DNA from: Siphonodentalium dalli
Taxonomy: Eukaryota > Mollusca > Scaphopoda > Gadilida > Siphonodentaliidae
Length of the DNA: 64,000 nt
NCBI GenBank assembly: GCA_032622095.1
Contig: CP136069.1
Location: 128,383,123 to 128,447,122 of the forward strand
Direction of reading: 5' to 3'
In this document: in pieces, positions 3,695-58,275 of the stretch
Layout of the letters: each line of letters starts with the position of its first letter
How positions within the stretch are numbered: position 1 is the first letter of the stretch
Made by a program: the position numbers and the translations under genes
The notes under the pieces: model-generated
The model's database searches: none
The model's input: only the letters and a program-made list of their open reading frames with translations
Told to the model about the DNA's origin: nothing

Positions 3695-6187
3695 ATACGA
3701 GTGGAACTGCTGCTTGATGGACGGGTGGTGGTTTACTTACTGTTCGATGTGACTGGATCTGGGTTTACTTCGTGGTTCACGCCAGAGAGACTCATCGAAG
3801 CCAGCTGGCCGACATTACCACTGCCGACATACGCGTTGTTTTTAATTGACAAAGCGGCTTGGGGGTGAGTATAGATTCACCACCCATTATCACAAGTGCA
3901 TGACGCAAAATGTGTCATAGCAAAAGTACCTATATATAAGACAAGGCTTCTAACTCCCGAAATGTAGAATGTCCATATATTCTCAAAACTGTAGTCAGAA
4001 ATGGAGCAATAAACGAAACATAAAAATTATAATGAAATAGTCATATTCCTTGAGTAATTCCCTATCATGCACAGCTATCGACAGTGGAGATATATTCCAT
4101 GGAAACATCAGACACCACTGGAGAGCGGACACAAAAAAGTGGTCGAACAAGACTCAAGACTCCACATGTCCGGTCACGCAACAGGCCATAATGGCAATAC
4201 TATTTTAACATTGAATATAAGGAAACAGCCGCTAAATTCCTGTAACATTTTCCTTTATTTTGATATTATGGACGAATCACGTACAATCGGAGACTGGCGA
4301 AAGAATGTGGTTGAACAAGACTCGGTCCGGTCGCGGCAATAAGACCGGGCATAGTCGTGTTCAAACAATTTTTGTGAACGTTCTCTGATGGTTTCTGGGA
4401 AGATATCCATATATCAAAATATATGGAATTGTTATAGAATTACGATTATTCTGCCATTATCATTTGTTTTATATCTGTTACTGCATTTCTGTCCACATTT
4501 TGGGACATGTGGAAATTCTCAATTCGAAGAGTTAAGAACCTTATAGGTACTTTAAATATGTGTCGAATTCGTGATGACATATAAAGCATAATTAATATCA
4601 AGAATGATTTTGTTTTTGCCAGACGATTTTTCTACATTCTGGAAGCCTTAGGAGGATGCACGGGTGATCAGACATACCTCATCATCAGCCAACAAGCGAC
4701 AGCCGCAGATTGCCCATATCATGTAGACGCCGTATACCCTCAATTCATCTATTCACTACTGGATACAAGCGCAAACTTTGCAGTGGGTAAGTCATTCCAT
4801 CGCGTGTAACATTTATGTATGAAAGACCCGAAATGTCAGGTCCCAGATCGATATAGCACGATTGGTGTGCCTTGTTTGAGCCAATTTCGCCTTGTGCTAT
4901 TTGATAAACTGTATGCAGGGTTCTAAGTCTCAATTTACAACAACATACTTATTTTAATCTAAAGGTCCACTTAATTATCGAGTCAACGATTATTTGTTAT
5001 AGTACCTTGATATACTGTTTTAATAACAATCTATGCCATAACATATTAAAATACTATAATTCATCAATATTAAAAACATCTGTGCCTCAAAAGATGCCCA
5101 TAGAGAAATAGAAAACAGCTGAAATCGCAGAAATATTTCCCCCGTTATGGCTCCCAGAATTCAAAAGATTTCAAACTAAAAATGTATTTTCAATGGAATG
5201 GGAATAATTATACCTTTGAGATATAGAGTTATTTCCCCATCCATTGAAAATAATACACTTTGCACTACAATCCAGATGAAAATTAAGCACAAAAACACGT
5301 CGGTAACTCAACAAATACAACATGTTCACAGTTTATTACACCGAATAAGTTGATAATACAATGTTTTGGAGCTTCCTCTTTCAAATGGTATATTATATGG
5401 CATATATGTTATATACGTGAGCTGGGGTTCGAAAATTAAGTGGGCCTTTAACATTACTATTCATTGCTATTGGCTGTTGTTTCACCGATAATACTATTAT
5501 AACCAACTGTGGCGTATACATTTGACAAAATAATTAATACAATTTTGTTATTGAAAGGTTCGTGAAAATATATTTTATTCCTCATTCGTACCTATGATAT
5601 ATAGAGATTGGTTGGACGTGAAGCGCCCTTGATGATCGAAACATCGAGTGATCTTCTCCTTCACCCAATACGTATATAGAATTACATATGTATTCCAATT
5701 ATATATATTGTATAACATTGAACAAATATATTTGGCAGTAAGCGGATGATTATTGAAAATTGTTAATTATTGAAGTTATTGCGATAATTGTTGCTGTCCA
5801 TTTAAAACCTAGAAATTATATAATATAACTCATATTGATTTCTTATATGGGCTGAAAATGCCATAGCAGCAAAGATAGTCTCTTTCAGATATCATTTCTT
5901 TGTCAAAACACGTCATTTAATACACCGAATAATAATGTTAAAACGTTATTATCTGAAAATCCCTACCAATGAATGAACGGGAATGCGAAAGGTATTCCTC
6001 TGTCTGTCACCTACCTGTGATAGCAGACCACTACAACACATGAATAGTACACCATTGTGGAATAATTATGTTTTAGAACAGAATGGGATAATTCTTTCAG
6101 CAAATAAGATTTAGCCATGGCGAATATTTTTAACTTTCAGACGCAGAAATGGGTCGAGCCGATCGTCTGGTGATTTCTGCGGAATGA
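3695..6187 (+). CDS. Host gene copy 1, 3' exons: uncharacterised extracellular-type domain, intact reading frame
   Basis: Three exons: 3695-3864 (phase 0 in, 2 out), 4623-4786 (2 in, 1 out) and 6141-6187 (1 in, TGA at 6185). Each has AG acceptors and GTGAGT/GTAAGT donors, and the phases join without a stop. The joined stretch encodes about 126 residues: a strand-rich part with VVVYLLFDVTGSGFTSWF and PERLIEASWPTLPLP, then RFFYILEALGGCTGDQTYLI, two more Cys-bearing segments (DCPYHVD, YPQFIYS), and a C-terminus DAEMGRADRLVISAE. From memory this pattern (G-GxxSWF, GGC..D..(W/Y)L, C....., P.FLYS, D.G.AD) matches an uncharacterised family of secreted-looking invertebrate proteins. No function is known to me. 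Earlier exons, including any signal peptide, are not in the window. Frame conservation against copy 2 supports this as the functional-frame copy. Confidence 0.7.
4958..5447 (+). mobile_element. TTAA-flanked MITE, copy 1 (490 bp)
   Basis: Ends are inverted: AGGTCCACTTAATTATCGA at the left and its counterpart TTCGAAAATTAAGTGGGCCT at the right, flanked by TTAA (4954-4957 and 5448-5451). The interior (ACAGCTGAAATC, CCCCCGTTATGGCTCCCAGAA) is found inverted at 57417-57760. The paralogous intron near 48480 lacks it, having a single TTTAAC at the matching point. TTAA target sites are typical of piggyBac and Kolobok. No coding capacity. Confidence 0.75.
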
Positions 6188-6450
6188 ATGCAAAGAAGAC
6201 GAAGGAAGCATAGACAAGTTGAGCGGCTGGCTGGTGCATCTATCCTGTATTTGTGTGACGTTTTGTTTTTAATTGAATGGACGGATGTGGCGATTTAGTT
6301 TTGTTAATTAGAATTACTGACTACATATATACGTTCAATTGGCCGATTCCTTCTTCGACATTTCCTTCCAATTCCTTGTGACGTGTTATTCATTCGAATG
6401 TTAGTGAAATGTGTGTGTCCCATGTACCACAGTTGCGATAGCATAAACGT

Positions 6451-6648
6451 CATATAACTTAGTCGCGGCCATGTTGGATCCATCCAGCCCCGTTTAGTGT
6501 TACAGATCAAATTTCTGGACCAGCATTCCATATATATGGAATTCATGAATATCTAAAAGCTCCATATATGGAATTCTCACATAACTTTGACCTGTAGCAG
6601 ACGGAAAGGGGCTGCATGTATCCAATATGGCCGCAACAAAGTTATATG
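6451..6648. mobile_element. Foldback MITE, copy 1 (198 bp)
   Basis: Begins CATATAACTTAGTCGCGGCC and ends with the imperfect complement GGCCGCAACAAAGTTATATG. The inner parts (CTCCATATATGGAATTC) also fold. The same family is at 60919-61180. Copy 2 of the duplicon (58080-58100) lacks it. No coding. Confidence 0.75.
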
Positions 6649-6834
6649 GTCGTCCTTACTGTGGTGCAGTTTGATGACGAGTATCCCCCATTATACTGTG
6701 GCATAGTTAAGTATGTTGTTTGATGCACAAGGAGTCTTCCTGCATGGACTCATCAACCCGTTACGTATCGCTGACTGTTGATCTCTACTCTCGCCTGTAT
6801 ATAACGTGCTCAGTCTGCCTGCACCCATTTTTAA

Positions 6835-7200
6835 AAACACATTTCGGGGGACAAAAGGGAGACTCCCATCTTGAGTTCACCACGAAGATCCATATGTAGT
6901 TTGGTGACGATTGGATGAGAAATGTGACCTGCAAGATGTGATAATGATTTAGTCATACAAAGAGTAAAATCCAATATGGCCGCTGGAAAAAAAGGTAGGC
7001 ACCCATCAAGAGGCCACACCGATGATTTATATGAAGTGTGTTGATGATCGGATGAGAGATACGCTCTGTATGGTGTTCTATTATAAAGGATTTAGTGATG
7101 CAAAGAGTAAAATCCAAAATGGCTGCCGGTGGCCATGTTTTTTAATCGAAAATCGTTCAAATTTGACAGCTCCCATCAAGAGGTGATCCTAGACCCATAT
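6835..7200. repeat. Diverged tandem repeat, about 139-bp unit
   Basis: Two diverged copies share the order GGATGAGARAT ... GATTTAGT ... CAAAGAGTAAAATCCAA ... ATGGC(C/T)GC. The AAAGAGTAAAATCC block starts about 139 bases apart (near 6960 and 7099). A third partial unit may lie at 7150-7200. Confidence 0.6.
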
Positions 7201-7540
7201 ACCGATTATTGTTAAAATCTGTTTGCTTTAACAACTTTATGTTATATTTTAATATGGTTTTTTGAATAGTCTATTTTTATTTGAAGAGTTTACATTTATT
7301 TGAAGAATCTATTATTGTGTTATGTTTTCATTTATATCAGGTTGAATAAATGATTTTTAACGGAACTATCTGAGCCTTTCCATGTCAATGTGTATTGATA
7401 GGTCCTTGATGAAAACATTTAGCAAGCTGACCTTTTTATTACCCATTGGTGTCATCTCTCATTATTAACTGATGGTGAACTCAACCCCATACTAAGAGTT
7501 AAATTCATACCTATTACATAATAGAATCATTCTTAAAATC

Positions 7541-7760
7541 TATATACGAGCGCCTGCGACACATAAGATGCTATGGTGGCGGGATGGGGTTGTGGGTGGG
7601 TACTACCTATATACGAGCGCCTGTGGCGCATACGATACTATGGGTGGCGGGATGGGATGATGGGTGGGTACTACCTATATACGAGCGCCTGTGGCGCATA
7701 AGATACTATGGGTGGCGGGGTGGGGTGGTGTGTGGGTACTACCTATATACGAGCGCCTGC
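7541..7760. repeat. Minisatellite, 67-68-bp unit x 3.2
   Basis: Units start at TATATACGAGCGCCTG at 7541, 7608, 7676 and 7744. Each contains GGCGCATAAGATACTATGGG and a G-rich half (GGTGGCGGGRTGGG). The last partial unit runs straight into the LINE at 7757. Confidence 0.9.
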
Positions 7761-9836
7761 GGTCAGCTGATCAAATTATTAACGAATATATCAAAGCCTC
7801 AGAAGATACAATGATAAGCATCTACGTACGTTTCTTCAATCTATTCCTAAAGACTGGGTTATTCCCAAAAGACTGGGCACTAGGATGAATACAACCCATA
7901 TACAAAGGGTCTGGAGATACAAATGAACCCGGATCTTACAGAGGTATCACACTTTTAAGCTGTTTTGCGAAACTGTTTACCTCCATTCTGAACAACAGGT
8001 TGACTTCCTTTGCAGATGATAATGAATCGATAAGTAAAGCACACATGGGATTCCGGAAGGGTCATTCCACTGTAGATAATATATTCATATTACATGCCTT
8101 AATAAATATATACATCAAGAGCGGTCGAAAACTATATTGCACATTCATTGACTTCCGCAAAGCATTCGATACGGTGTGGAGAGATGCACTGTGGCGCAAG
8201 CTTATATAATCAGATATAAATGGTAAAATACTACGAGTTATACGGAGCTTGTACACGAATATTAAGCTATGTGTGCAAAATAATAATGGTCAGTCAGGTT
8301 TCTTCATAAGCCAGGTAGGTTTATTTCAAGGAGAGACAATATCACCCCTTTTATTCTCTTTTTCGTAAATGATTTACAATGTTTTTTGAACGATTGTGCT
8401 ATTTTAAACCTGAATTTTTAAGATGAGAAATATTGTGAACATATTGGATGTTTTATTAGCATATTATCTTTGTTATATGCCGACGATACGGTTATCTTGT
8501 CAGATTCTGAGGAAAATATGCACCGTGCTCTTTTAGTCTTTGCTGACTACGCCGAGGCATGGAAACTTGAAGTGAATACTCTCAAGACCAAACTCATTAT
8601 ATTTACGAACAAATTACCAATAAATATTCCCATATTTATATACAGAGGGCAAGAAATAAAATTTGTAAAGGAATTTAAATACCTTGGTATCAAGTTCTTC
8701 TACAATGGGAGATTTTGCCAATCTCTTAAAGATACCACAATTACCACAACGAAAGCAATGTACGGTCTACTGAATCGAACTCGAAAACTGAGGTTACCTT
8801 TAGATATTTATTCAAGTTATTCGATGCTATGGTTATGCCTATTATGTTATATGGAAGTGAAGTTTGGTGCTTTGAAAAAGTTCAAATCCTCGAGACGCTC
8901 CATTTGAAATTTTGTAAAATAGTTACCTCAATGAAATCTAGTACGCCTAACTACATGGCTTATGCCGAACTTGATAGCTATCCTATATTGATTGAAATAA
9001 AATACAGGACACTATCATACTGGTCAAAGCTAGTTTCACACGAAGGATCGGAGCTAGCCAAGAATATATTTCTTTTACTTAGATATATAAATGAGAGGGA
9101 TACAAACATGCAAAATAAGATGAATTGGGTATGTTTTGTAGAAGGAATTCAACATGACCTACACATGGAACATGTGTGGACAAACCAATCAGCGCTGAGC
9201 AAAGCAGAGTTGAAAAACATAAAATCGCTACTGATTAAGCAGTATGAGCGCAACCTCTTTGACAACCTGAATGCTTCTACTTCACCGCGTGCCATATTTT
9301 ACGGAGCCATAAAGCAGTCCATGAAAATGTGTAGCTACTTAGTTTATTTGCCATCTCTTTTGTCTAACTACCTATTGAAAATCAGAACATCTAATAATAA
9401 ATTACCAGTAGAAAAAAATAGATTGACAAAAGAAACCACAAATTCCGCAGACAATTTAATGTGTGTTTTATGTGAAAACAGCCCTTGCGACGTATATCAC
9501 TTTATGATCCTATGTCAAAAGTTACAAGATTTACTCGAAATCCACATTCCCAAATATTACTGGGAGAACCCTAACAGAAATAAATTTCATCGTTTGCTCT
9601 CAATTGAATATTTGAGCCTTCTTAAAAAAGTTAGCATATTTATAAAACTATCTTTAAAAAGGATACCACGTTAATGTAAATTGCATCATGGATTACAATA
9701 TAATTTTTTGTGTATGTATTTGTATTGTTATGACTTATATGTTATGGGTGCCTTGTGTATAGTATGTATATATATATGTTATTGCATGTTCCAACTTAAC
9801 TGTTGGCTTTGCAAATAAACAATCAATCAATCAAAC
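7757..9836 (+). mobile_element. Degenerate non-LTR retrotransposon (CR1-like), 5'-truncated, dead
   Basis: Reverse-transcriptase region in broken frames. It starts at the segment equivalent to CGxDxIxNEYIKAS (about 7770), then GFRKGHSTVDNIFILHAL (8048-8101), motif A FIDFRKAFDTVW (8146-8180), motif C LLYADDTVILSDS (8469-8508), and a C-terminal half (8829-9674) with a Cys/His knuckle CVLCENSPCDVYHFMILC near 9460-9515. In-frame stops at 7888 and 8206 and frameshifts near 7766, 8340-8460 and 8830 make it non-functional. The 3' end is AAATAAACAATCAATCAATC, a CAAT-type short-tandem tail. It shares architecture with the LINE at 48600-52240. The clade is by motif impression only. Confidence 0.85.
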
Positions 9837-22738: not shown

Positions 22739-25070
22739 CCTGCGGTCAGATGCTCGTAGCCCGTTTATATATAACCATGGGTATATGCGAGAAATGCACA
22801 ATGAAAACACACTCCACAGTTTGGATCGATAAGCCTTGCCATGTGTATTTTGATGTTGCGTTTTTTGACAATCGGTCTTCCGTATCCTTTCTACAACACA
22901 ATTATCGTCTTACTTGCAGCATGAAGTTACCGTGTGATCGCCACGGAAGCGTTTTCATTCAGAGTATGGATATATTGCCGCCGGTTCAATGTATTCTCGG
23001 ATAGAAAACAAATACGCCTGTGTCGAAAGCAGAAAACTAAGTCGCGAGGGGCACCCCCTGGTTGAGTCTGGGATATTTGGCACTCGTTACTTGGCTAGAG
23101 TGGTTTTGGTTGGGGTGGTCTCCACCTTGGAATTTCCAACTGTACCCCATCCCATTGAACCCCACCAAACTCACAAGTTTGCGTAATTCAATTTGCATAC
23201 CCCCACCTCGGTGCTTTGATTTTTCCCAAATGTTCTCTCACAGACTACTATATTGTAGCCTATTCTAAATGGACCAGTAGTAGTGTGGCCACTGGCCATG
23301 CAAGGGGTTGAAAAGGATGGTTTGGCACAGTATGGGATTAACAAATCCTAACATATAGTGGTATAACGCCAGACAAATTTACACCCCGATTTATTTTTTC
23401 TTAAATTAATTAGCAAGTAACTACTGGCAAGGCATATCACACACGGGCGGCCGATGGTTAGACCCGATGTGAGAACATTTTGAAAATCTGAACATGAACA
23501 TTTGACAATCCTAGCATCTAGACTTGTCTCAAGCTGTCCAATTCGGGGATTTTTTTTAACCTGACACTCACCCTTAGGTTTGTAAATTGCCAGCTGATGG
23601 CCATTTCAGTCCAGAATTTAGCAAATGAAAGGGAAATATGCAAATGTTGGTCTAAACACAACAAATTCGTCATTAAGTAATTGTTGGAAAATCAAGCTAT
23701 ACGAGAAAAGTTTCAACCTAATTTTGGTGCGAATTTTCCAATTAAAGTTGCATTAGGTTTGACTACAGTTTGGGGGGTAAGACCCCTGCATAGCCACCCC
23801 TGTCGACACGTCCCTGCTTGACACCCCATGCTAAGAGCGCGGTCTTGCATTCACTGAAGACGAGAAATCATCGATACTAAACTACGGGGAGGAGTCAGGG
23901 GGCTACATCCCCTCCCTGCCGGGGAGGGATAGTCACCCCCGTCAGTGAGATCTGCAATTGTCAACCCGGTAGCTAAAGCCCACTCCTGTCAGGGAATCGT
24001 ATAGCCCCTGTGTCGGTAATATCCTGGCGCAACCCCTGTTTGAAATCATGCAGAAATTTTAATGGAGAAGACCACATATGGAGCAGAAATCGTGGGAAAT
24101 GAGCTATCATAACCACAAAACTACACTAAAGACATCCCAATAAATAAATAAAATGGATGAAGTCGCATAGAGTATATATCGTATCGTTCTGTTGGCCTCT
24201 CTATATCATATAAACACCTTTTCTAGAAACCCTTAAATATATGGGCGGCGTTGGCGGTGGGTATGCTGTTAAAATATTCACCTCCGTCAAAAACCGCCAT
24301 AAACAGGTAGAATAGTAAAATCTAGACAGACTTTGTTCTTATACCAATCAGAAATATGTATGTTATCATCAAATGTTTTTCCTTTGTTAAGTAAACAAAA
24401 GCAAAAAACGTTACGTTTCCTGGCTTTTGTTTAGATCCGGATATGATAAACATAAAGAGCGTTATTTGTCACTGTTTTCCTGATATGGAAATAATAAAGA
24501 GCGTTTATATCATTTGTGTGTGATTAACCAATATAATTGCGTTGTGTTATGTAAACAGAAGCAACACTTCTGTTACACGAGCATTCTCTTGTTTACGTAC
24601 ACCACCGTACGTCTTGACGACAACATACTATTTACGCGCTGATTATGTTTGGCATATGAACAAAACTATATATATATTAATATTCCTTCTATTGATGGCG
24701 ATTTGAACAAATATGAACATTTCTGCAAGGAACGCCACCCGTGCCTTTAAACCAACTCGACGTGCGATTTCCCTGCGCTCCTGTTGCGCAAATTCTGGTA
24801 TAAAAAGTGCGTCTATTTCAGACAATGTGCAAACGGTAAATATGACCAGACAAGACATATAAACCGCTAATCTCATTACCAATCTAACAACACCAGTCGA
24901 ACATGATTACCTTTCAAGGCAATAACACCGGGCACCAGGTTATGGCCAACCGCAGACACACACATCATGGATAAATAAACGGTCAAAAGAACGGCGTTTT
25001 TTTTTGTACGGTTATATCTAGCATATACCCATGGTTATATATAAACGGGCTACGAGCATCTGACCGCTGG
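22739..25070. other. Region bracketed by a 50-bp, 49/50-identical inverted repeat
   Basis: 22739-22788 reads CCTGCGGTCAGATGCTCGTA... to GTATATGC. 25021-25070 is its exact reverse complement apart from one base (T/A at the third position). The arms are much better conserved than any other inverted repeat in the window. No target-site duplication is evident (flanks GTAAACA and TCTATTTTT). The interior of about 2.2 kb has no recognisable transposase. It includes the signal-peptide-like frame at 24643-24882 and an unrecognised Cys-bearing frame at 22714-23004. It could be a young TIR element or an inversion scar. Confidence 0.6.
24643..24882 (-). CDS. Small ORF with signal-peptide-like N-terminus, unrecognised
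   Basis: A 79-residue frame. The N-terminus, MVMRLAVYMSCLVIFTVC followed by TLSEIDA, has a basic start, a hydrophobic core and a small-residue cleavage site, so it looks like a signal peptide. The mature part is short, charged and probably helical (QQERREIARRVGLKARVAFL). No Cys pattern or known domain was recognised. It could be exon 1 of a spliced gene whose further exons lie at lower coordinates, a small secreted peptide, or chance. A sequence resembling a splice donor (AAAGGTAATC) lies just upstream at about 24909-24918 (minus strand). It sits near the right arm of the inverted repeat. No homologue is claimed. Confidence 0.3.
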   Translation of the reverse strand: MVMRLAVYMSCLVIFTVCTLSEIDALFIPEFAQQERREIARRVGLKARVAFLAEMFIFVQIAINRRNINIYIVLFICQT

Positions 25071-31175: not shown

Positions 31176-32251
31176 TACTATAACTGAGACAGTCGTATAA
31201 TCCAGTGGCCAATTATAGGGAGTATGTTGACACCTGTCATGTAGTGATGAAATTCAGTGTTAGCATGTCGTCTTAAATTTAATTTAGCACAGCATCTAAC
31301 ACCCGAATCAGACGTACGTACTATCGAGGCGTCGAATTGAATTATGCCATATATGTGGAATACTGTTCGGGCCAACCTAAAATGGACAAGGGTGATGTCG
31401 GTTGTGGTACCTTGTATGTCTAGGTTTATCGGTCGAGCTATAAATTCACTTCCTTGGTTTATGTTCTGATGTCTCGCGCGAGTTTGGTGATTATATTTAT
31501 CGCAGCCATGCAGTTAGATATGGTAAGTACATGCTATTAGTCGTATTTGACGGTGTTGTGATTGCATAGTTTTTTTTACTTTTGGCTGGGCCACTCTTGA
31601 AGATTTTATTGCGGGAACACAATGCATAATATAACTTCTAACATTGGTGATGAAGTATGTTTCAGTTGGAATATAGACTAAAGGTCATATTGAGAAGTGT
31701 CGGGTGTGTATATAATCCGATTAGTAGATTTTTGGTGGTCCCGCATTTAGAGGCTTTCTGGTGTGGTGACTGAGAAACCTGCAATGATAATATTTTGCCG
31801 TAGCTGTTGTATAATAATTTGAATGATTAGTTGTTTTAGTGGAATTCTGAAGTGGTGCTTTCATGAAACCAATATATTTTCTATTATAATTTATATAGAT
31901 GCCTAATAATATGATCTTGAGGGCGTTACCATTTATGACTATGGTTTTCTTGTAGCACAATGTGTGCATGTTCGAACGTGAGTCAAGAGCACAACGTTTC
32001 TTGGTATTATGTTCAGTGTTATCCATATTACAAAGCAATGCTCCTTTATTGCGATCGTATAATGTACAACGTTCACTTCATTTTTGCTATATTTAACTCA
32101 TCGTGCGTGATGTCGTCATATTTCAAATATTCTATTGAATCACCATCTGCCTTAATATCATTATATGCCAAATCACAGCTACATGTATATATATTCTTAT
32201 TGTTGTGTATAGTATCCACTTCATTTTTGGCAACTGTTGTATTATATACGG

Positions 32252-36859: not shown

Positions 36860-36922
36860 TGACACCGAGTACTGTTGGGACAACTACGACAGAATCATCG
36901 ACAACAACAACTACAAATCTGG
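36860..36922 (+). CDS. Candidate Thr-rich linker exon (copy 2 gene)
   Basis: 63 bases between ATGTTTCAG and GTAATG, symmetrical phase 1-1, coding for TPSTVGTTTTESSTTTTTNL with no stop. A Ser/Thr-rich stretch like this suggests an O-glycosylated extracellular linker. It joins the next exon (38286) in frame, creating GAT across the junction. The exon is short and low in complexity, so the call depends on phase fit. Confidence 0.45.
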
Positions 36923-37162: not shown

Positions 37163-38208
37163 CTAGCAGGTTAGCCCGCCACTGGCGTGGTTGGTCAGAA
37201 ACATGACATTTAATATTTAATTTGTTTTTGAATTTTTGAATTATTTTTTTTCAATGAGGTAATTGTGCCTTTTTCTGGCGGAAAAATTGACCCGATGAAA
37301 TCCCCCCCCCCTTCCTAGGAACGACAGACAACGCATTCTTTGTTTTTCAATGAGTTAATTCATGGTACCCGTCCTAAACTTCCCCGTTCCTAGGAACGAC
37401 AGACTTTTTAATCAAGAGAAATTATGATACCCGTCCCTATAAAAGAGGTATGATTTTTTTTAACCTGCCCGTGGTCATTGAGCAGCCCCTGACAGAGGTT
37501 GTCCACCCTTACGAGATGGTCAATAGTCCCCGCAAAGAGCGGACAGTCAATTAACCCCGCCGTGAGCCCCATCACCATCGCGACGTAATTTTGTTTGGTA
37601 TCATGTGTTGCGTTCTAAAAACAGGTCGATTACAGTGGATTCGTTCATGACGAAATATGAGTGCGACAGAGAATATTGTTTGATCTAAAACAACTCGCAC
37701 GAATGGCAGTCTAGCTATTCACAAAGAATTGTAAATCAACTGCGTCTGTTCCCGTATATCTCTGTTGAGTTGAATTGTAAATCTAAAACAACTCGAACGA
37801 ATGACAGTCTAGCTATTCACAAAGAATTGTAAATCAACTGCGTCTGTTCCCGTATATCTCTGTTGCGTTGAATTGTAAATCTAAAACAACTCGAACGAAT
37901 GGCAGTCTAGCTATTCACAAAGAATTGTAAATCAACTGCGTCTGTTCCCGTATATCTCTGTTGCGTTGAATTGTAAACAAACGCTCTTTTATAGCGATGC
38001 GTCAAAAACAAACGCTCATTAAATTATCACTTGATTAACCACCGCAGTGCCGTTTTTTGTGACTGAGAGTGGAGAACGGGTGGTCTGAGCTTCTCCAAAA
38101 CGCCGCGACGACGACGCCCGTGAGTTTTTACCCTTAGATGGGAAGTTTGAACTCAATCGAGCCAGCCGTTTTAGAGTCTATAGAGGACACATATATTTAT
38201 ATATATAC
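37163..38208 (-). mobile_element. Non-autonomous Helitron-like element (minus)
   Basis: On the minus strand the 3' end is at 37163: hairpin CCACGCCAGTGGCGGGC, then TAACCTG and CTAG followed by T. The 5' part ends near 38208 in TATATATAAATATATG. The internal text (GGAAAAATTGACCCGATGAAA, TAGATGGGAAGTTTGAACTC) is related to 45225-45560. It contains the 98-bp tandem array and occupies most of the intron between the first two exons of copy 2. Confidence 0.6.
37684..37978. repeat. Minisatellite, 98-bp unit x 3
   Basis: CTAAAACAACTCG(A/C)ACGAATG starts units at about 37685, 37783 and 37881, and each continues through GGCAGTCTAGCTATTCACAA and CTGTTCCCGTATATCTCTGT. The copies are almost identical, so the expansion is recent. 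It lies inside the Helitron-like element. Confidence 0.95.
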
Positions 38209-38285: not shown

Positions 38286-38461
38286 ATGTAGTCAAAGTTA
38301 AAGCGACGCCACTCCTCAGTGTAGCCAATGGTACGGGAGTACACGTCTTAAACTTATGGGAGATGGATTCATTTGTGTGCCAGGGTAGGTGCATTGACGT
38401 ATACAGGAATAATGAAGAACTCAACAGATGGAAAAACATGGGTGTTCCTCCCATGGATAAG
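38286..38461 (+). CDS. Domain N-terminal exon (copy 2 gene)
   Basis: Acceptor TCTCTCTGCAG, donor AAG|GTCAGT, phase 1 in and 0 out, 58 codons without a stop. It encodes SVANGTGVHVLNLWEMDSF, VCQGRC and RWKNMGVPPMDK, and joins directly to the RVELLL... start of the 43183 exon. The LNLWEMDSF..C...C arrangement sits where relatives recalled from memory have a similar LW-D-F / Cys segment. No counterpart to this exon is seen upstream of copy 1 in the window. Confidence 0.6.
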
Positions 38462-42477: not shown

Positions 42478-45017
42478 ATATTAAGTTCCCAGATGATGTT
42501 CAGGTTTACAACCCATTTAATTGGGAATCTCGATTATTCATTGTGTCGGCTGCTAATTTGGAGATATTTATGGAAATTAAACTAAAAAGGAGAGACTTTC
42601 TAAAGAAATTTTAAAATATGTTTATTTGATAATGAAGATTTTTCCTAGAGGAAATGTGAGGCCGAAGTATAATAAGGTCCCCAGTGGGTGCATTTAGTTA
42701 TGCTAGCCCGCTGTATACGGGGTAGCGTCACTAAATTCACAATTTGTGGACCTCATTCTGCAAATGTCCAGCACTATATTTTGAAGACTAAATGACACAC
42801 TCAAGTGCTACAACGGGACAACTTTCTGGAACACTTTTGAAAATAAACCTAGCAGGGTGGGTGGGTCCACAAAGGGTAGTAAATTTCAGAGGAACCGAAG
42901 CCCAACATTCATTGGCGGGGAAGTTGTGTGATAATGTCAGAGTTATTTATTCTGAGACTTGTCCTGAAATGTTTGCTAAAATGTGCTTCCCATAAGATGT
43001 TAATTTTATTAACGAGATACCGCGGGTAAGCGTATATTACAGCCCATATTTGCCTAATATGTATGTTTCTATATAGTGTCATATCGTGTGCCTTTTTCCG
43101 TCAGATGCATCTTTTCATAAAACCAGACGTTGCAAGTTGCAAGTGCATGTAACTGTACCTAGCTGTGGTTGATCATTAACAGATACGGGTGGAGCTGCTG
43201 CTTGGTGGACGGGTGGTGGTTTACTTACTGTTTAATGTGACTGGATCTGGATTTACTTCGTGGTTCACGCCAGAGAGACTCATCGAATCCAGCTGGCCGA
43301 CATTACCACTGCCGACATACGAGTTGTTTTTAATTGACAAATCGGATTGGGGGTGAGTACAGATTCGCTTCCACCACCAGTGACTACCTATAATCGCAAG
43401 TCCCTGACACAAAAGTTTTCATAACACTAAAATCACCTATATATAAGACAAGGTTCCTAACTCCCGAAATGTAGAATAGTCAGAAATGGAACAATAAACG
43501 AAAACAAAACGTAATAATAAAATAGTCATATTCCTTTAATAATTTCCCTTCAACCATGTACAGCTAGCGACAGTGCAGATATATTCCATGGAAGCATCGG
43601 ACACCAATGGAGAGCGGACAAAAAAATGATCGAACAAGACTCCACATGTCCGGTCACGCAGCAGACCATAATGGCAATAATATTATAAAAATGAATATAA
43701 CGATACAGTCGTAAAATTCCTGGAATACTTTCCTTTATTTTGATATTATTTATATTATTTGGATCAACCACGTACATGTGGCCAGCGCTAGTGGAGCTAT
43801 CTACCACGAGACAGTCGGAGATTATCGAAAGAAAGTGGACGAAAATGACTCGGTCCGGAATGCGGCAATGAGAATGGACATAATCTTCTTTGACCAATTA
43901 TGTTCACAGTTCACCGATGGTTTCCATGGTTTCAGGGAAGATATATCCGCTGTCGCTGATTGAACATGTGGTTGATCCATATATCAAAATGTAGGGATTT
44001 GTTATATGAATAGGAATATTGTACCTTTATATTATCTTTCTACTGTATCACTTTTGGCGGACATGTGGACATTCTCAATTGGAAGAGTTAAGAACTTGTC
44101 TAATACATGTAATTTTAGTCTGTTGGCTAATTTTGTGTCAGAGACCTGTGCATATGTGTGCACGTAACTAGTTGTGGTGGCGTATATGACGCATATTGGT
44201 AAATAGTAAATACGAAACTAGGGATTATATGCGTGGTCAAATGCTTTGTATAATATAGGAACGTCCCCTACATAATAACATCCCCTAATTGGTCCACGAA
44301 AATAGTCAGTTATAAAATCGCGTAAGCTGGATGTATTAGTTTAGGAAGAATAGGGAATTTCCCACGCAAACTTTGAAGAATCTAGGGATTTCTCTCGTAA
44401 GGTTTTGACCTTCACTAATTAGCACCGTTCACAGTCGGAATTCGCAGCTAGTCAAACACGGATGCCATGACCAGGTGGTCAGTATGTTCGCGTGCGATGA
44501 CTAACTTCAGAATTGTCGAAAATATGTGTATCTGTTTATGTCTCAGTGAGACATAAGGTATTATAAATGTCTTGTGTGCTTATGTTTGGATTTCTTCTTA
44601 TGTTTGGACATTTGTAAACTTTAAATTATATTTTAATGGAGTATATATATGGACGCCACTTGACAAGTACTGTACATGTAAAGCTTTTGATAAATTTGAT
44701 ATAGTAACTTTGTTAATTGTAAGCGATTATATATCTGGTCGGATTCAACTCTATATAGAAGGTAAGTGATCGATCAGAGTTTAATATTTAACTATAGGAG
44801 TGAGTACTATACTATAGCAGTTATATTCACATGTTAAACAGTATTATAAACCAGCGGATATATCTTCGGTCGTCGGTCGGATAGACATCTCCGTGGTATT
44901 TTATCCAATCAAGTGCATTTGACACATTGTGTCGCTGTAATCGGTAGCAGAGATAACAGATAGCCTTCACAGCCACAGGCCCCTAGAGAAAAATCTAAAA
45001 TACCAATATATAATATA

Positions 45018-46613: not shown

Positions 46614-46673
<60 letters not shown>

Positions 46674-48076: not shown

Positions 48077-48599
48077 TACGTATATATATACGAATGTATC
48101 GAATTTGTGATAACATATAAAGCATAATATAATTAAATCAAGAATGACTTTTTTTTCCAGACGATTTTTCTACATTTTGCGAGCCTTCGGGGGATGCGAG
48201 GGTGATCAGACATACCTCATCATCAGTCAGCAGGCGACTGGCGCAGACTGTCCATATCATGTAGATGCGATATACCCTCAATTTCTCTACTCACCACTGG
48301 AAACAAGTGCAAATTTGCAGTGGGTAAGTCATTCTACCGCGTGTGACATTTATCTATGAAAGACCCGAAATGTCAGTCCCAGCTCGAGATAGCACGATTG
48401 GTATGACTTTTTTGAGCCGATTTCGCCTCGTGCTATTTGACAAAAATTATTCAATGTTCTAACAACGTACCAATTCTAATTTAACTTTACTTATTCATTA
48501 TTATTGGCTTTTGTTTCACTGAAAATAATATTATAACCAAAGGTACTCAATTCACAGTTGGAACATTATGTAACTTATATTCCGACGAACATTGTCCCA

Positions 48600-51500
48600 T
48601 TACAACGTAAATTACCCTTCCCATCACTAATCCGACAAACATGATAGTACCGGTACCGCAAACCAATACAAATAGTCAAAAAACTATTAGAAATTGGGAA
48701 GAGGGAAAGTCCAGTGAATTTACACTGAACCTAGATCCAAGTAGCATAAATAATGCAAATCTACTCCTTGATCAGATCGAAAGCGACAAATCTAGGTCCC
48801 CAGATATTAACCATGTGGTGATCATGGTATCAAACTTGCTATTAACTGCAGCTGATAATACCTTTAGCAGACCAGTAAACAAAAAGAGTCGAAGAACACA
48901 CCGCAAATGTCCGCAATAATAAACCATGGTTTACAAAAGCATGCTGGTCTGCAAGAAAAGAGTATAGGAAGGCCGTTGGACACCATAAAAAATCCCCCCG
49001 TGGAGAAATGAAGCAGAATATGCATGACAAAGCAAGTGAATATAAAAGAGAAATGAATAGTGCTATAGGCAAACATAGAGAGAAAGCATCCAAAGAAATA
49101 GCACACATGAAATATAAAAACCCAAAGAAATTCTGGGCCTCTCTAAATAACCGCGTGAAAACCAAGGCACCACCCATTGAAATAGGCAAATTTGAAGACT
49201 ATTACCGAGAGTTGAATAGTGCAGTACATGATAGCAATGACACTGCCACTCAAATGGAGCATTCAGATAGCAATGAATCACTAAATAAACCAATCAGTAC
49301 AGATGATATTAAAAGGACACTGCATGGCTTGAAGAATAATAAAGCCTGTGGACAAGATATGATATTAAATGAATATCTTAAAGCATCATCAGATAAACTG
49401 TTAAACATATATGTTAGAGTATTTAACCATGTACTGAACACTGGATGTATACCAGATGCATGGGGTATAGGGACCATTGTCCCTATTTATAAAAATAAAG
49501 GTGACACAAAGGACACAAAGAACTATAGGCCTATCACAATCCTAAGTTGTTTTGGGAAACTATTCAAAAAAATTCTCTCAAATAGGCTGTATGAATTTCT
49601 AGAAAATAATGACATTCTTCAGGTAAACCAAGCAGGGTTCCGAAAGGATCACTCGACGGTTGATAACTTATTCATATTGCATATCTTAGCAGAATTGACA
49701 AAGAATATAAATTCCAACCTTTACTGTGCCTTTATAGATTTCGAGAAGGCATTCGATAGAGTTTGGAGACATGGCCTGTGGCAGAAACTACTGTCATATT
49801 ATATCAATGGAAATTTCTTCCAGGTCATTAGAAATATGTATCAGAACATAAAATCCTCTGTCAAGACAGGAAATGAACATTCGGCATTCTTCCCATGCCT
49901 ATCAGGAGTTAGGCAGGGCGGGAATCTATCGCCCGTCCTATTTTCTCTATTCCTCAATGACCTAGAGAAGTTTATGATAAACGAGGATATTGTAGGCCTC
50001 AAGAAAATATCAAATCAGATCGAAGAAGAATTGAATACCTATATGAAATTGCTTATAATTTTATATGCGGATGACACGGTGCTTATGGCTGAGACCCCCA
50101 AAAAAATACAAAAAGAACTAGATTCCTTCAGCAAGTATTGTAAGACTTGGAAACTTACAAACAAAGATCTTACTGATGTCCAAGCGTAGTTTACCACGTA
50201 ACACCCATTTCTATTTAAATGGCATTAAACTTGAAGTAGTAAAAAAATTCAACTACTTGGGAATTGAACACACAAAATCTGGTTCGTATTCGGAAGCAAA
50301 ACATATACTTGCAACAAAAGGAACCCATGCAATGTACACCGTGATTAAAAAATCCAGAGTAAATAGCCTCTCAATAGCTAACCAATTTGATCTATTTGAT
50401 GCCCAAGTGCTACCAATATTATTGTATGGCTGTGAGGTCTGGGGTTATGGTGATAACCAGACCCTTGAAAATGTCCACAAAACATTTCTTAAACATATCC
50501 TGAATTTGAAACAATCAACCCCAAATTATATGATTTATGGTGAATCAGGAAGATTCCCATTGGAACTCACAATAAAATTAAGACTTTTGAAATATTGGTC
50601 GAAAATTAAAAACATGCCCAATAAACGATATGGGAAAGTCCTCTATGAGTTATCACTGAAACTTCTAAGTGAAGCAAATGAACGCACCTTTAAGGGCTTT
50701 GTGGACCCAATTTTTCCAAAATTTCCCAAAATTTTATAGAGTCCAAATAAAGGATTCTGTTCATATATATTAGTAATAATAGAAACCATGCCCATTGATG
50801 CAACATTTTGAGAGTATACCTCATGGTGGATTATGTTAGAAATACAAAATGTGAACTTTATTGAGATTTAAAAAATATTTATTTACAGGCAATGGCCCAA
50901 GAAAAACAAAGTCCAAATCTAAGAATCAAATATGGGAATCTGTACTGAACACTGTGATGAATGATGTATTACAAAAAAAATATTATATTTCTTGAGTGTT
51001 CTTTGATAAAATTACTTTGAACCGGTTGTTGACAAATGATATACTAACTTCATAATATGGTTGACTGAGAGGCAGCAGTTAATGGGTCAACCTTTCATGG
51101 CTGATGTCCAGTCTGGTGTGAATGGCTTTTTAACAGTGTCAAACTTCCACATTAGTGATCACCCTGAGTGAGTGGTGACCTACTTACTAGAATTAGTATG
51201 GTGATCTGGTAGGGGTATGAGTGAGGATTAGCATTATATTGCCAACAGAGTCCAGAGCAGTTACAATGGCCAGCTGTTAACCCGTGCCTGCTACCACCCA
51301 CATAGCCAATGTTTAAGCAAGTATATATCATTTGTCAACAACCGGTTCAAAGTAATTTTATCAAAGAACACTCAAGAAATATAATTTTGTAATACATCAT
51401 TCATCACAGTGTTCAGCACATATTCCCATATTTGATTCTTAGATTTGGACTTTGTTTTTCTTGGACCATTGCCTGTAAATTATTTTTTTTTAAATCTCAA

Positions 51501-52240
51501 TAAAGTTCACATTTTGTATTTCTAACATAATCCACCACGAAGTATACTCTCAAAATGTTGCATCAATGGGCATGGTTTCTATTATTACTGATATACATGA
51601 ACAGAATCCTTTATTTGGACTCTATAAAATTTTGGGAAATTTTGGAAAAATTGGGTCCATAAAGCCCTTAAGTGGACAAGAGAAATTAAAGAAATCTTGG
51701 CCAGCTGCGACCAACCCCAGTTATTGACTGCTGATAAATTGCACTGTGCAGACCAATTTTTAGACTGTGTGAAAAGAAGCCTTATCAGGGACTATAAAAT
51801 TAAGTGGGAATCCGAACGCGACACCTCAAGCAGAGGTAAGATATATCGTATATTCAAACACGATATCAATTTTGAAAAATATTTGGATACCCTAGAAAGT
51901 AGAAACAGAACTGAATTCTGTAGACTCAGAACAGCTAATCATAACCTCCCAATTGAAACTGGGAGATGGAATGGGACAAATCATAAAGATAGAAAATGTC
52001 CCCTATGTACACAAAACATGATTGGAGATGAGTTCCATTATTTACTAGAATGTACAAAATATAGACAAATAAGGGAGAAAATCGTCCCAGAAAAATACCG
52101 TGGAAAAGCAAACATTATGATGATGAACAAAATTTTGAATTCACAAACCGCATCAACTCTAAACCAAGTATGCACACTTATGTGGAAGGTTCATACGGAT
52201 CTCTCTAATGTACTACAACTTTGATTTACTTTACATATTC
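48600..52240 (+). mobile_element. CR1-like LINE, near-complete RT, interrupted by a TTAA element
   Basis: 5' piece in frame 48641-48919. A frameshift near 48905 leads into PWFTKACWSARKEYRKAV (from 48925), and then an open frame to 50187. RT landmarks: GLKNNKACGQDMILNEYLKA, IVPIYKNKGDT..NYRPITIL, GFRKDHSTVDNLF, motif A FIDFEKAFDRVW (49735-49770), motif B SGVRQGGNLSPVLFSLFLND, and motif C ILYADDTVLMAE (about 50058-50093). A small deletion with frameshift at about 50157 moves to the 50176-50739 frame (NYLGIEHTKSG, VLPILLYGCEVWG). The TTAA element then interrupts the codons at 50694. The ORF resumes at 51672 and ends at 52222, with knuckle CPLCTQNMIGDEFHYLLEC. The endonuclease is mostly missing. 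Not functional. Confidence 0.85.
50694..51667. mobile_element. TTAA-flanked foldback element, 974 bp, inside the LINE ORF
   Basis: Perfect TTAA on both sides (50690-50693 and 51668-51671). The arms are about 345-350 bp (50694-51043 and 51323-51667), nearly identical inverted copies starting GGGCTTTGTGGACCC / GGGCTTTATGGACCC. The unique centre of about 280 bp has no ORF. Removing the element together with one TTAA puts the LINE codons back in frame across the site. Kolobok- or piggyBac-like by target site. It has no transposase. Confidence 0.9.
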
Positions 52241-52925: not shown

Positions 52926-54977
52926 AGTCAAGATTCAAGATTCAAGATTCAATAAGATTTATTTCGTATTCAATATAATTATAATACATATATATCAACA
53001 GGACCCCACAAAAAGTTTAACTTGTAAGGGCAGGGCCCTTATGCTTGTATAATGATACAGTGTTATGTGTACGTATATTGGGTGAATATAGTGCGGGTGC
53101 GTATTTACAATGTGTGTATTATTGTATAGAGATGGGCAAGAAGGGTGGGGCATGGGGTGGGGGGGGGTCGGGTTGTGAGATGGTGATTATAGTCATTTTT
53201 TTAGTTGTTATGCTTTATCTGGTAGCCAATATGATTATCGTGATGTCTTTATGCTGAGACCTGCGCGATCGTCTTGCAATTTTCAATAATGTGGGGAATA
53301 CCAGTATTTAAGGTGATCAATGAAATATGGGTGTGAATACTGCTTGATTTGGTTGAGGAATTGGTTAAGGTTATAGACAAGTTGATTATTTTTGCACTGT
53401 TGTTCAGATGAGTGACAAATAGTAACACATGGAGGAAAAGTGGCATAAATTTGTTTGGCCTGTTCCTCACCGGGAGAGCTGGCCAGGAGAGGGAGGATTA
53501 TACTATGAGAATAAAGAGAAGTTCATTAATTTCTGCCCCCTCTTCTGGACAGTCTCTGTCGTAAGGGACTGCTGGCTGGTATTGCCTTAGTATATATAAT
53601 AGGGGAGAGAATACATACAAACTGGATTGTTATTTGATATTGGGGTGTATTTATTAATGAAATGTGATTTTAGGTACTTATGATATTTGTCACTAGTTTC
53701 TACGCGAAGCTTACAATCACATGGGAGTTCATTCCATAGACATCTGGCTCTGGTTGATATGACACTTCTTGCTTTTTTTGTTCTTCTGAATTCACAATAC
53801 AGATTTGAATTTGCTTTGAACCGGGTATTGTGGTTATGGATATCATGTATATTAGTAAATATTGAAGACAGCGATTTGGGGAGTTTCTTTTGATGGAAAT
53901 CATGTAAAATTTGTATTAGTTGCATGTTTCCAATGTCATTCATCAATAGCAAATTGTGGTCCCTGCATATTTCTGGTATGCTTTTTTTTTGTGTAAGATA
54001 GTGTGGCGATAGCTTTGTTTTGTATTTTTTCAAGATTTTCAAGGTTTTGCTTTGTTGTTGCACTCCATATGGCATTACAATATGTGAGATGTGGGATAAT
54101 CAGTACAGAATAGATTGTTTTCATTGTATCTCTGGGTATGAAATCACTGATTTTTCTCATGACTCCTAAATTTTTTGACAGTGTTTTAGTAATAGATTAC
54201 ACTTGCATATTCCATGATAAATTTTCATCAATAATAATTCCTAGGAATTTAGTGTTTTTAACTCTTTGTATCTGATTTTCATTGATCTTGAGCTCGGGTA
54301 GGACAGTTATTTTTTTGCATAGATCTGTATTCGTAAATATCATGTAATAAGTTTTTTCTAGGTTTAGAGATAGTTTATTAGCAAGAAACCATTTGCTCAT
54401 TGTCTCCATTTCTTTGTTGACTACATCATATGCCTTATTTATATCTTTATTAGAGTAAAATGCATTTGTATCATCAGCAAATAATATTAGATTCAGGTCC
54501 TTACAAATATTTGGAAGATCGTTCATATATATCAGAAAGAGTAGAGGGCCAAGTATAGATCCTTGTGGAACTCCACATATTATGTCTGTTTGTGAAGACA
54601 AGTGGCCTTCATATTGTACAGATTGTTTTCTATTAGTCAAATAGCTTTGGAACCAGTTCAGTGCAACCCCACGACATCCATAGTTTTCAAGTTTATTTAG
54701 CATTATATTATGATTTATTGTATCAAATGCCTTTGATAGATCAAGGAATACCCCAATGGTGTGTTCTCTATTATCTAGGGCTTGGGTAATTTTCTCTAAG
54801 AGATCAGTTAGTGCCAGAATAGTTGAGTGATTCTTTCTGAAGCCATATTGACTTCTGTATAGCATATTGTATTTGGTTAAGTATTTGTTCAGTCGGTTGT
54901 ACATCATTTTTTCTAGGATTTTGGAAAATACAGGTAGCACAGAGACTGGCCTGTAGTATGGCGGACAACAGTTAATT
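52926..54977 (-). mobile_element. L2/CR1-like LINE (minus), 5'-truncated, with (TTGAATC)n tail
   Basis: Minus strand from about 54975 (YYRPVSVLPVFSKILE) to the first stop at 54197. It contains YGFRKNHSTILALTDLLEKI, motif A GVFLDLSKAFDTINHNIML, motif B GVPQGSILGPLLFLIYMNDL and motif C LILFADDTNAFYS. After frameshifts near 54195 and 54060 the C-terminal part continues (IPHLTYCNAIWSATTKQNLE; then HNHNTRFKANSNLYCEFRRT) to about 53590. The 3' UTR runs to 52926, where AATAAATCTTATTGAATCTT is followed by TGAATC repeats. A different LINE family from the CxxC-knuckle copies elsewhere in the window. Confidence 0.85.
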
Positions 54978-55881
54978 AACAGACTGGCATATCATTCACA
55001 CGTGTTTTGTTTGAAGACGATTAACGTAATTAAATACACAATTACCGCTGTACTTCGAACCCAACTCGATTCATGATCCATTTCGGAATTCGCGTAGAAA
55101 AACGTACTGTGAAATTTTCGTACCAAAAAACTAAATTGTTAGTGTAATCTTTAAATCCCCATTGCACCGGAGACATGTATATAGTTTGTGTATATATCTT
55201 CACATCCTTTTGTAAATATCACTCTGTATTTCTCAATATTCATTTGTAATTATGAGAATAAAGCATCAATCAATCCGATCAGACGGTCCGTTACCATCAA
55301 GATACAACAACAACAACATTTCTTTAAACTACGCTTTAGTTGTCAGAATCGATTTATTGCAACAAGATACTGCTAACCACAGTGACTGTCAACTATGGTA
55401 TCAAATTTCCCAAAACTTGTTAGTTATCAACAATTTTTTCAACAAAATATGGCCGTATATTATCACTAAAATATCACGAAATTTGACCGTATTACCACTT
55501 GATTTTAGAGTTATCCATCTCCATCCGCAATTTTGTCCGAGACCCTCCGTTTGACCACGTGTTTCTGGGCCACATATTATTACACATATCGAGAAACAAC
55601 AAACTTCAGAAATCGATATATGATCACTCTGAGCTTTGGTGGGTGGGTTCCTCGACTCGAATCAAATATGTTTTACCCCCGAAGCCAAAGAAATAGTAAT
55701 TTAGGAGTGTCTGATCGGATTGAGTACCTTTAATGCGATAATTGTTGCTGTCCATTTCAAACCTCTAAATTACATAATATAATGTGCATTGGTTGAAAAT
55801 TCAATATCAACATAGAATGTCATAGATATTATCTTTCAGATATCACCTTTATGGGTTATATACGTTATATATGTTATTATA
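54978..55881. other. Intron of copy 2, mostly unannotated
   Basis: 55730-55850 is duplicon sequence matching 5770-5905. The rest (54978-55730) has no recognisable feature beyond a (CAA)n run near 55305-55316. Confidence 0.4.
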
Positions 55882-56309
55882 TCTCATATATATTTTGAAG
55901 ACCTCTGTCTGTATGTATGTTTGTTTGTTTGTTTGTTTGTCTGTCTGTCATTTATACAAATCTACGATTCTCGACCGATCGGGACGAAACTTGGTACGTG
56001 TGTGTAGTTTGACCAGGCGGTGAACGTTGTCGTATTGGCGAGCCCGTGCGGCGCCCGCTTCGCGCATGCGCAGACGAGATCTCGGAAACGGGTGGAGCTA
56101 TCGACTTGAAATTTGCTATGTGAATGTATCTTGCCCCGGATACGAATTTTATCGGGTCGCCGAGCCCGTGCGACGCCAGCAACGCGCATGCGCAGACCAG
56201 ATCTCGGAAACGGGTAGAGCTATCGACTTGAAATCGTCGGGCTGGGTAGAGCTATCGACTTGAAATTTGGTTTTTGAATAGCCCGGACAACGTCGGGCTC
56301 ATCGGCTAG
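55882..56309 (+). mobile_element. Helitron-like element, second family, tandem member 1
   Basis: 5' TCTCATATATATTTTGAAGA, then (TTTG)n and CTGTCTGTC, then ACCGATCGGGACGAAACTTG, repeated GAGATCTCGGAAACGGGT(G/A)GAGCTATCG blocks, and the 3' hairpin AGCCCGGACAACGTCGGGCT, CATCGG and CTAG at 56306-56309. Next member follows without a gap. Confidence 0.7.
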
Positions 56310-56823
56310 TCTCCTATATATTTTGAAGACCTCTGTCTGTATGTTTGTCTGTATGTTTGTCTGTATGTTTGTCATTTATACAAATCTACGATTCACGACC
56401 GATCGGGACCAAACTTGGTACGTGTGTGTAGTTTGACCAGCCGGTGGACGTTGACGTATTGGCGAGCCCGTGCGGCGCCCACTTCGCGCATGCGCAGACG
56501 AGATCTCGGAAACGGGTGGAGCTATCGACTTGAAATTTGGTAAGTGAATGTATCTTGCCCCGGATACGAATTTTATCGGGTCGCCGTCCCCGTGCGACGC
56601 AAGCTTCGCGCATGCGCAGACGAGATCTCGGAAATGGGTCGAGCTATCGACTTGAAATTTGGTATGTGAATGTATCTTGCCCCGGATACGAATATTATCG
56701 GGTCGCCGAGCCCGTGCGACGCCAGCTTCGCGCATGCGCAGACCAGATCTCGGAAACGGGTGGAGCTAGCGACTTGAAATTTGGTTTTTGAATAGCCCGG
56801 ACAACGTCGGGCTCATCGGTTAG
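56310..56823 (+). mobile_element. Helitron-like element, second family, tandem member 2
   Basis: Starts TCTCCTATATATTTTGAAGA directly after the previous CTAG. Carries three GAGATCTCGGAAA blocks where the first member has two, and ends with the same hairpin and TTAG (56820-56823), a one-base variant of CTAG. Confidence 0.7.
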
Positions 56824-57190
56824 TATATTATATATTTTGGTACTTCTGTCTGTATGTGTGTATGTGTCTTATTGACTCGAAAACTGCTCGACCGATCCGA
56901 CTCAAATCTGGTATATATGCCTACTTTGATCCCGAGAACAATCCAATTCACGTGTGACCGTGTCCTTGACCTTGACCTCGCTCATGTTGGCATATTTCTG
57001 GACCTCGACCGATCCGACTCAAATTTGGTATGTAGGCATACTTTGATCCAGGGAACAATATGGACGGGTCCAATTTCACGTGCAACCGTGTCATTGACCT
57101 TGACCTTGATCTCGCTTATATACGCTCATATAGGCATGTTTCTGGACCGATCGAACAATACTTTGTCCAGACGCTGTATATTCTGCCCAA
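56824..57190 (+). mobile_element. Helitron-like element, third family, 3' end unclear
   Basis: Starts TATATTATATATTTTGGTAC right after the preceding TTAG, with TCTGTCTGTATGTGTG, ATTGACTCGAAAACTGCTCG, ACCGATCCGACTCAAAT(C/T)TGGTAT, and TTGACCTTGACCT blocks twice. The terminal hairpin and CTAG are missing, so it is probably 3'-truncated. Confidence 0.5.
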
Positions 57191-57416
57191 ATGAATGCGA
57201 TCACAAAGAAATGTAAATGTAAATATAGAGGGGGCGTAATCAGACAACAGCCAAACAATTTTCAAAGTGGCGCGAAAGTTGAAGGTGACAAATTCCGATC
57301 GCTAGAAAATGTGGTAATTTTCCGGAAGGGTTTATTCGATACCTGAAATAATAGCGGTCGCCCGACCGAGGAATTGTTATCGCTAATAATAACTCATGAA
57401 TTGGAGAATTCTTTAA

Positions 57417-57760
57417 GGCCCACTTAATTTTAGAAAATTCGAATTTAATATAAATATATGCCATATTATTTTCAATGTCAGGGAAATAACTCTATCTAAA
57501 GATATAGAGTTAATCCCCTTCCATTGGAAATATATTTTTAGTTTTAATTCTGTTGCATTCTGGGAGCCATAACGGGGGAAATCTATATCTATGATTTCAG
57601 CTGTCTTCTATTTCTCTATGAGCACCTTCTGAGACACGGACGTTTCAAATGGTGATGAATTATAGTATTTTAATTATATTTTATGGTATAAATTGTTATT
57701 AAAACCGTATGTCAAGGCACTATAAACAAAAAATCGGTGACTCGAAAATTAAATGGGTCT
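57417..57760 (-). mobile_element. TTAA-flanked MITE, copy 2 (344 bp)
   Basis: Inverted relative to 4958-5447. Ends GGCCCACTTAATTTT and AAAATTAAATGGGTCT, flanked by TTAA (57413-57416 and 57761-57764). About 145 bp shorter than the copy at 4958. It stands some 45 bases before the acceptor of the last exon. Copy 1 lacks it at the matching place. Confidence 0.75.
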
Positions 57761-58275
57761 TTAACAAAATAAGATTTAGCCATGGCGAATATTTTTAACT
57801 TTCAGACGCAGAAATGGGTCGAGCCGATCGTCTGGTGATTTCTGCGGAATAAATGCAAAGAAGACGAAGAAAACATGGACAAGTTGAGCGGCTGGCAGAT
57901 GCATCTGCTGTATTTGTGTGATGTTTGTGTTATTAATTGAGTGGACGGTTTTGGTTAAATCGTTTTGTGAATTATAATTATTGACTATATTGGCCGATTA
58001 CTTCTTCGACATTCCCCTGTGACGCGTTATTCATTCGAATGTTAGTGGAATGCTGGTGCCACACGTGCTACATATGCGATGTCATAACAGGTGTGCTGCC
58101 TTACTAGCTGTGGTGCAATTTTGATGACAATTGTCCACCATAGTTACTGTAGTATATAGTTAAGTATGTCGTTCGATGTATGCAGGGGCGTGGCTATAGG
58201 GTCTCCGTTGGGGTGTCCACCTTGTGAAATTGCAACTGCACCCCCGTATCGCTGACTGTTGATCTATAATCTGGC

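Follow-up and report, generated by a model that had tools for sequence, protein, structure and literature searches.

Three gene copies and a one-base deletion

The window analyzed here is a 64,000-nucleotide (nt) stretch of the Siphonodentalium dalli genome (C9:128383123-128447122) that carries two copies of one gene, the second of which has lost a single coding base. DNA searches were run against the whole 2.23-Gb, nine-contig genome. The initial annotation described the locus as a duplication in which exons at 3695, 4623, and 6141 are paired with exons at 43183, 48161, and 57806 (here exons A, B, and C of copies 1 and 2), with intron homology as well. Base-by-base comparison bore out all three pairs, and the introns of the two copies proved to be homologous, as the exons are. 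A search with the exon A region returned three places in the genome, the weakest with an expectation value (E) of 4.2e-108, far above chance; the exon B and C regions likewise returned three places each, corresponding to copy 1, copy 2, and a third copy. This third copy outside the window, a set of exons upstream of exon A, and a lesion of copy 1 at the acceptor of its own upstream exon X go beyond what had been annotated. Copy 3, found at C9:128459330-128461706 directly past the window edge, is encoded by the minus strand. The frame is open through its exons A, B, and C (170, 164, and 47 nt), whose splice sites are GT/AG; exon B includes a locally rewritten stretch (two 2-base indels or four substitutions, depending on the alignment) that leaves the frame unaffected. 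With their upstream exons, the three paralogues cover about 125 kb. The A-B-C features inside the window are as follows.

3695..3864, + strand: copy 1 exon A; 56 codons plus 2 nt, phase 0 start, preceded by ACAG and followed by GTGAGT
4623..4786, + strand: copy 1 exon B; 164 nt, phase 1 end, preceded by GCCAG and followed by GTAAGT
6141..6187, + strand: copy 1 exon C, the last coding exon; preceded by TTTCAG, encoding DAEMGRADRLVISAE and the stop, including the G from exon B
43183..43352, + strand: copy 2 exon A; 170 nt, as in copy 1, from which it differs at 10/170
48161..48323, + strand: copy 2 exon B; 163 nt, one fewer than in copy 1
between 48313 and 48314, + strand: position at which copy 2 has its derived deletion of a single base, which copies 1 and 3 retain
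57806..57852, + strand: copy 2 exon C; acceptor intact, out-of-frame reading, old stop TAA at 57850-57852
57836..57838, + strand: new TGA stop after the frameshift, from translation; inside the last coding exon

Exons A-B-C have GT/AG splice sites in both copies 1 and 2. The splice phases of copy 1 join into an open frame, in agreement with the initial annotation, and its spliced product ends in ...FAVDAEMGRADRLVISAE (likewise given as ...TSANFAVDAEMGRADRLVISAE) before the stop. Exon B of copy 2 was confirmed to be one base shorter than that of copy 1 (163 versus 164 nt); 23 of the 163 aligned bases differ, in addition to the missing one. The loss turns AAACTTT into AAATTT, and because copies 1 and 3 both carry AAACTTT, the one-base loss in copy 2 is, on this comparison, the derived state. 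Spliced in the same way, copy 2 ends in ...LQWTQKWVEPIVW (likewise given as ...TSANLQWTQKWVEPIVW) at the TGA at 57836-57838, with 13 different amino acids in place of the last 18. Translation of copy 2 upheld the annotated wrong-frame reading of its last coding exon. The annotation further spoke of a conserved last exon that had been lost; exon C and its acceptor are in fact intact, and it is the reading frame of the exon that has shifted. Exon C measures 47 nt in copies 1 and 2 and differs at the single base reported previously, which changes the stop codon from TGA to TAA.

Signs of selection on the copies and probable exchange between them

We compared the divergence of copies 1 and 2 in their exons and in the surrounding DNA. 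In exon A, 5.9% of the bases differ (10/170) versus 13.8% in flanks and introns (126/913; P 0.003). This reduced divergence is not seen in exon B, where 14.1% of the bases differ and the flanks differ at 7/63 and 18/139. Gap columns amount to 1 of 381 in exons versus 118 of 1515 in flanks and introns. For exon A plus the part of exon B before the deletion, the ratio of nonsynonymous to synonymous substitution rates (dN/dS; method of Nei and Gojobori) was 0.29 for copies 1 and 2, 0.34 for copies 1 and 3, and 0.42 for copies 2 and 3, and dS between copies 2 and 1 was 0.24.

Changes confined to a single copy allow the copies to be considered one by one. In exons A-C, the counts of silent and replacing codon changes were 10 (plus the stop) and 8 for copy 2, 6 and 2 for copy 1, and 5 and 5 for copy 3, omitting six codons that have a gap or no single odd copy. 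Under neutrality, so few replacing changes in copy 2 have a P of 0.007 with these six mixed codons left out, and a P of 0.027 when exon X is added and its mixed codons are omitted as well. A maximum likelihood mixture of constrained and free evolution placed the share of the copy 2 branch that follows the loss at 0.07, with a one-sided 95% bound of 0.585. The richness of copy 2's own changes in silent ones suggests that this copy was under selection for much of its life. In exon X, the single-copy changes of the three copies comprise 4 silent and 14 replacing ones (three mixed codons omitted; P 0.02 versus the other exons), so this exon taken as a whole shows little constraint among the copies.

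The initial annotation took the single difference in the 47 bases of exon C to mean that the deletion is recent or that the tail was under selection until lately. The silent excess in copy 2 points the same way, but its strength varies with the codon count used; the 1/47 figure alone is weak and no better than suggestive. In the 44 coding bases of exon C, copies 1 and 2 do not differ at all, for which P is 0.02 at the rate of the near flanks (9/106) and 0.001 at that of all flanks (40/282). At most one change in the 47 bases has a P of 0.08 at the near-flank rate and 0.007 at the all-flank rate, and on copy 2's own changes the near-identity gave P values of 0.017 and 0.07.

The three copies do not share a uniform relationship along their length. 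Copy-specific changes in copies 1, 2, and 3 number 56, 60, and 63 in block A, 10, 37, and 10 in block B, and 12, 26, and 32 in block C, and the pair of copies most alike changes from block to block (chi-square P 8.5e-5). A run of 65 bases directly before exon B is the same in copies 1 and 3. Exchange between copies is likely to lie behind this mosaic pattern.

As a separate observation, exon B of copies 1 and 3 (4623-4786 versus L003) differs at 14/164 bases versus 8/202 in the flanking introns (P 0.08), with nine replacing changes; diversification of this exon is possible.

Upstream exons and the X-A-B-C family

Comparison of the upstream DNA of the three copies revealed exon X, which is predicted to join exon A in frame. 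Relative to exon A, its upstream distance is about 16 kb in copy 1, where it falls before the window, and 21 kb in copy 3. Farther upstream are mucin-like exons of phase 1-1, seven in copy 1, of which one has the poorest composition, and one in copy 2; at the threshold applied, the search upstream of copy 3 yielded none. Symmetric phase 1-1 repeat exons can multiply without a change of frame. Two upstream exons, both open and with GT/AG ends, fall inside the window.

36860..36922, + strand: copy 2 threonine-rich mucin-like exon, phase 1-1, encoding TPSTVGTTTTESSTTTTTNL; the seven such exons upstream of copy 1 lie outside the window
38286..38461, + strand: copy 2 exon X, with two cysteines, ending in ...VCQGRCIDVYRNNEELNRWKNMGVPPMDK, phase 1 to 0; the counterparts of copies 1 and 3 lie outside the window

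Some of the seven copy 1 mucin-like exons, which lie in L018 and L017, encode an identical peptide, and the number of these exons varies among the copies. Because of the mucin-like stretch and the cysteines, the protein is probably secreted. A first exon encoding a signal peptide was sought upstream in all three copies and was not found. The ATG exons considered as candidates next to copies 2 and 3 are unlike one another; that at 31469, in phase 0 at its GTAAGT, has the wrong phase for joining the mucin-like exon. A block near 24233-24750 that is common to the three copies was rejected as an exon, as by eye it has matching inverted ends and is transposon-like.

Copy 1 has a lesion of its own. 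Exon X starts at CTGCAG in copies 2 and 3 and at CTGCGG in copy 1, where the AG acceptor is lost, and from the acceptor point the copy 1 exon (L017, near 7264-7436, some 16 kb ahead of window position 3695) is three bases shorter. An AAG 15 nt downstream of the lost acceptor keeps the phase and yields an open exon of 158 nt, by which the lesion is possibly bypassed.

To place the C-terminal exons in the genome, we searched it with the 126-residue A-B-C protein. This gave 76 places at E up to 10 (38/76 at E 0.01 or better), which we assigned to exon A (44) and exon B (32); exon X as the query gave 28 places, 10 of them at E 0.01 or better. An exon B place follows within 40 kb downstream on the same strand for 31 of the 44 exon A places and lies upstream for 3/44, and an exon A place lies within 100 kb downstream of 23 of the 28 exon X places and upstream of 9/28, clusters inflating both members of each comparison. 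Judged from these matches, X-A-B is a repeated module in the genome without a family name. An alignment of seven family sequences, in which the exon joins of five paralogue rows were set by eye, has 19 invariant columns, including W-F, S-W, L-P, and two cysteines.

Pfam returned no match for copies 1 or 3, NCBIfam none for A-B-C of copy 1, and PDB none for copy 1. Weak matches appeared in PDB at E 0.03 or worse when copy 3, a profile, or single members were searched, and in Pfam for PIR1-like_C (E 0.0014), Cass2 (0.12), and Aida_C2 (0.28), each for only 1 of 7 family members. On these profile and sequence comparisons, X-A-B-C is without convincing Pfam or PDB family membership. The domain may resemble uncharacterized mollusc proteins. 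Neither the arthropod cuticle domain PF00379 nor the mollusc haemocyanin domain PF14830 had a match in the genome, but all 14 control genomes likewise gave none with either domain, so these negatives do not speak for absence.

We surveyed exon C at the seven paralogous loci that have an exon B (L007-L013). The good case is L010 on C1, with a comparable phase-1 last exon that ends in GFSERFSIYVK and a stop. L009 and L011 form a weaker candidate pair, for which overall DNA similarity alone may account for the match, and exon C was not recognized in L007, L008, L012, or L013. Exon B was not found in the examined stretches of L005 and L006.

The window also holds repeated and mobile DNA. Reverse-transcriptase-like open frames at 48879-52224 (+) and 53587-54991 (-), identified by eye, make up much of the 9.5-kb B-C intron of copy 2. 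Long inverted repeats with 94-99% complementarity, perhaps transposon ends, lie at 13364-14178/17773-18586 and 62227-62471/63376-63620, and tandem repeats at 1355-1740 (period 39), 37683-37977 (period 98), and 56463-56793 (period 122). An apparent inversion adjoining exon C (4948-5255 versus 57464-57773) is by eye better explained as separate insertions of one element with inverted ends.

Interpretation and comparison with known systems

We favor, with a probability of roughly 0.57, the reading that the recent C-terminal frameshift is a young loss-of-function allele, either an early pseudogene or a segregating variant, in a previously selected copy 2. Copy 2 is one of three paralogues in a family of probably secreted proteins that combine a threonine-rich mucin-like stalk, its exon number variable among the copies, with a C-terminal X-A-B-C domain, and selection, for which the signal is of moderate strength, would have kept it through much of its history. 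As a late event, one base was lost near the end of exon B, and the splice sites stayed intact. A ribosome would then reach exon C in the wrong frame, exchange 18 residues for 13, and meet the TGA in the last coding exon. Nonsense-mediated decay usually spares transcripts whose stop codon lies in the last exon. The mRNA of copy 2 is expected to be spared, provided that no further exon follows, and is probably stable because its stop falls in the last coding exon. The same general rule is stated in the abstract of PMC8775493. Since the last exon of paralogue L010 is a comparable phase-1 exon, the tail probably forms the domain's closing strand; the copy 2 product, having lost this probable strand, would for that reason be unstable or altered. 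Judging from the frameshift, loss of function is most likely.

Several points weigh against this reading. If three of the omitted codons, those at which copy 2 encodes a residue unlike that of either other copy, are counted as copy 2 replacements, the P for the scarcity of replacing changes rises to 0.027; with exon X and its mixed codons added and those three also counted, it reaches 0.067. With exon X, the estimated branch share after the loss becomes 0, with a bound of 0.78. Exchange between the copies may have freshened exon C, partly explaining its near-identity. The 5' end was found in no copy, and copy 2 may be broken or otherwise built upstream.

Copy 2 may instead work with its 13-residue alternative C-terminus, as an Ohno-type frameshift after duplication. 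A common-frame dN/dS of 0.29, a dS of 0.24 versus copy 1, and the restriction of the shift to the tail match the type-C class described by Guo et al. 2022 (PMC8872073). The shifted region of copy 2, however, has zero substitutions of its own to test, and the original tail is nearly intact, so the shift looks young; a functional new tail is unlikely, though it leads the alternatives. Next to it, and unlikely too, stands an assembly or base-calling error, with the base present in the animal. Single-base indels are a common error in long-read assemblies, and the rest of copy 2 appears selected, but AAACTTT is not a long homopolymer. The frame might also be restored by splicing through a different acceptor or donor. 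No frame-restoring acceptor exists between 57720 and 57852. Among exon lengths of 152-299 nt, two poor donors, at +4 and +19 bases (GT at exon lengths 167 and 182), give an open frame into exon C. By eye, taa|GTCATT and cgt|GTGACA fit the donor consensus worse than the adjoining intact tgg|GTAAGT, and either would add residues; rescue by a donor 4 or 19 bases downstream is less likely still.

The frameshift in copy 2 is an ordinary kind of event, and the gene is more probably on its way out than acquiring a new function. We hold it doubtful that copy 2 is a working gene gaining a new C-terminus by a single frameshift invisible to decay surveillance, in an unnamed, expanded, mucin-stalked extracellular family with exchange between copies. 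If it were, the nearly untouched old tail would allow the onset of an Ohno-type frameshift to be observed directly, and if the shifted copy were expressed and common, a duplicate would have been caught where decay and a new tail part ways, alongside two siblings that retain the old tail for comparison. Otherwise the lesion is recent and routine for a clustered family, and the more lasting interest lies in the unnamed X-A-B-C domain family of this genome.

Secreted proteins with mucin stalks share the threonine-rich phase 1-1 exons, of which 7, 1, and none were found before copies 1, 2, and 3; they differ from the present family in its C-terminal X-A-B-C domain, which lacks a convincing Pfam or PDB match. 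Copy 2 resembles early pseudogenes of tandem or clustered families in having one lesion, exons otherwise open, and GT/AG sites. It differs from them in showing signs of constraint along much of its branch; copy 1 is also lesioned, possibly with a bypass.

The closest comparison is with frameshifted duplicates. Guo et al. 2022 (PMC8872073) report 80 duplicate pairs with frameshifts, C-terminal in 51 of 69 single-shift cases, and name NOTCH2NL and ARHGAP11B as examples. Type-C duplicates, like copy 2, have one frameshift in one duplicate near the C-terminus and a common-frame ratio of nonsynonymous to synonymous change (Ka/Ks) below 1, and their shifted region is mostly shorter than the original, as in copy 2 (13 versus 18 residues). 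The type-C cases come from annotated transcripts, most of them expressed; copy 2 is known from DNA alone and may be in early decay. The present locus offers a paralogue pair with a derived indel, its direction taken from the third copy rather than from an outgroup species, and common-frame constraint with a dN/dS of 0.29 (copy 1 versus copy 2), the test on copy 2 only being weaker (P 0.007-0.067). Seen against these systems, copy 2 is a further instance of frameshifted duplicate genes.

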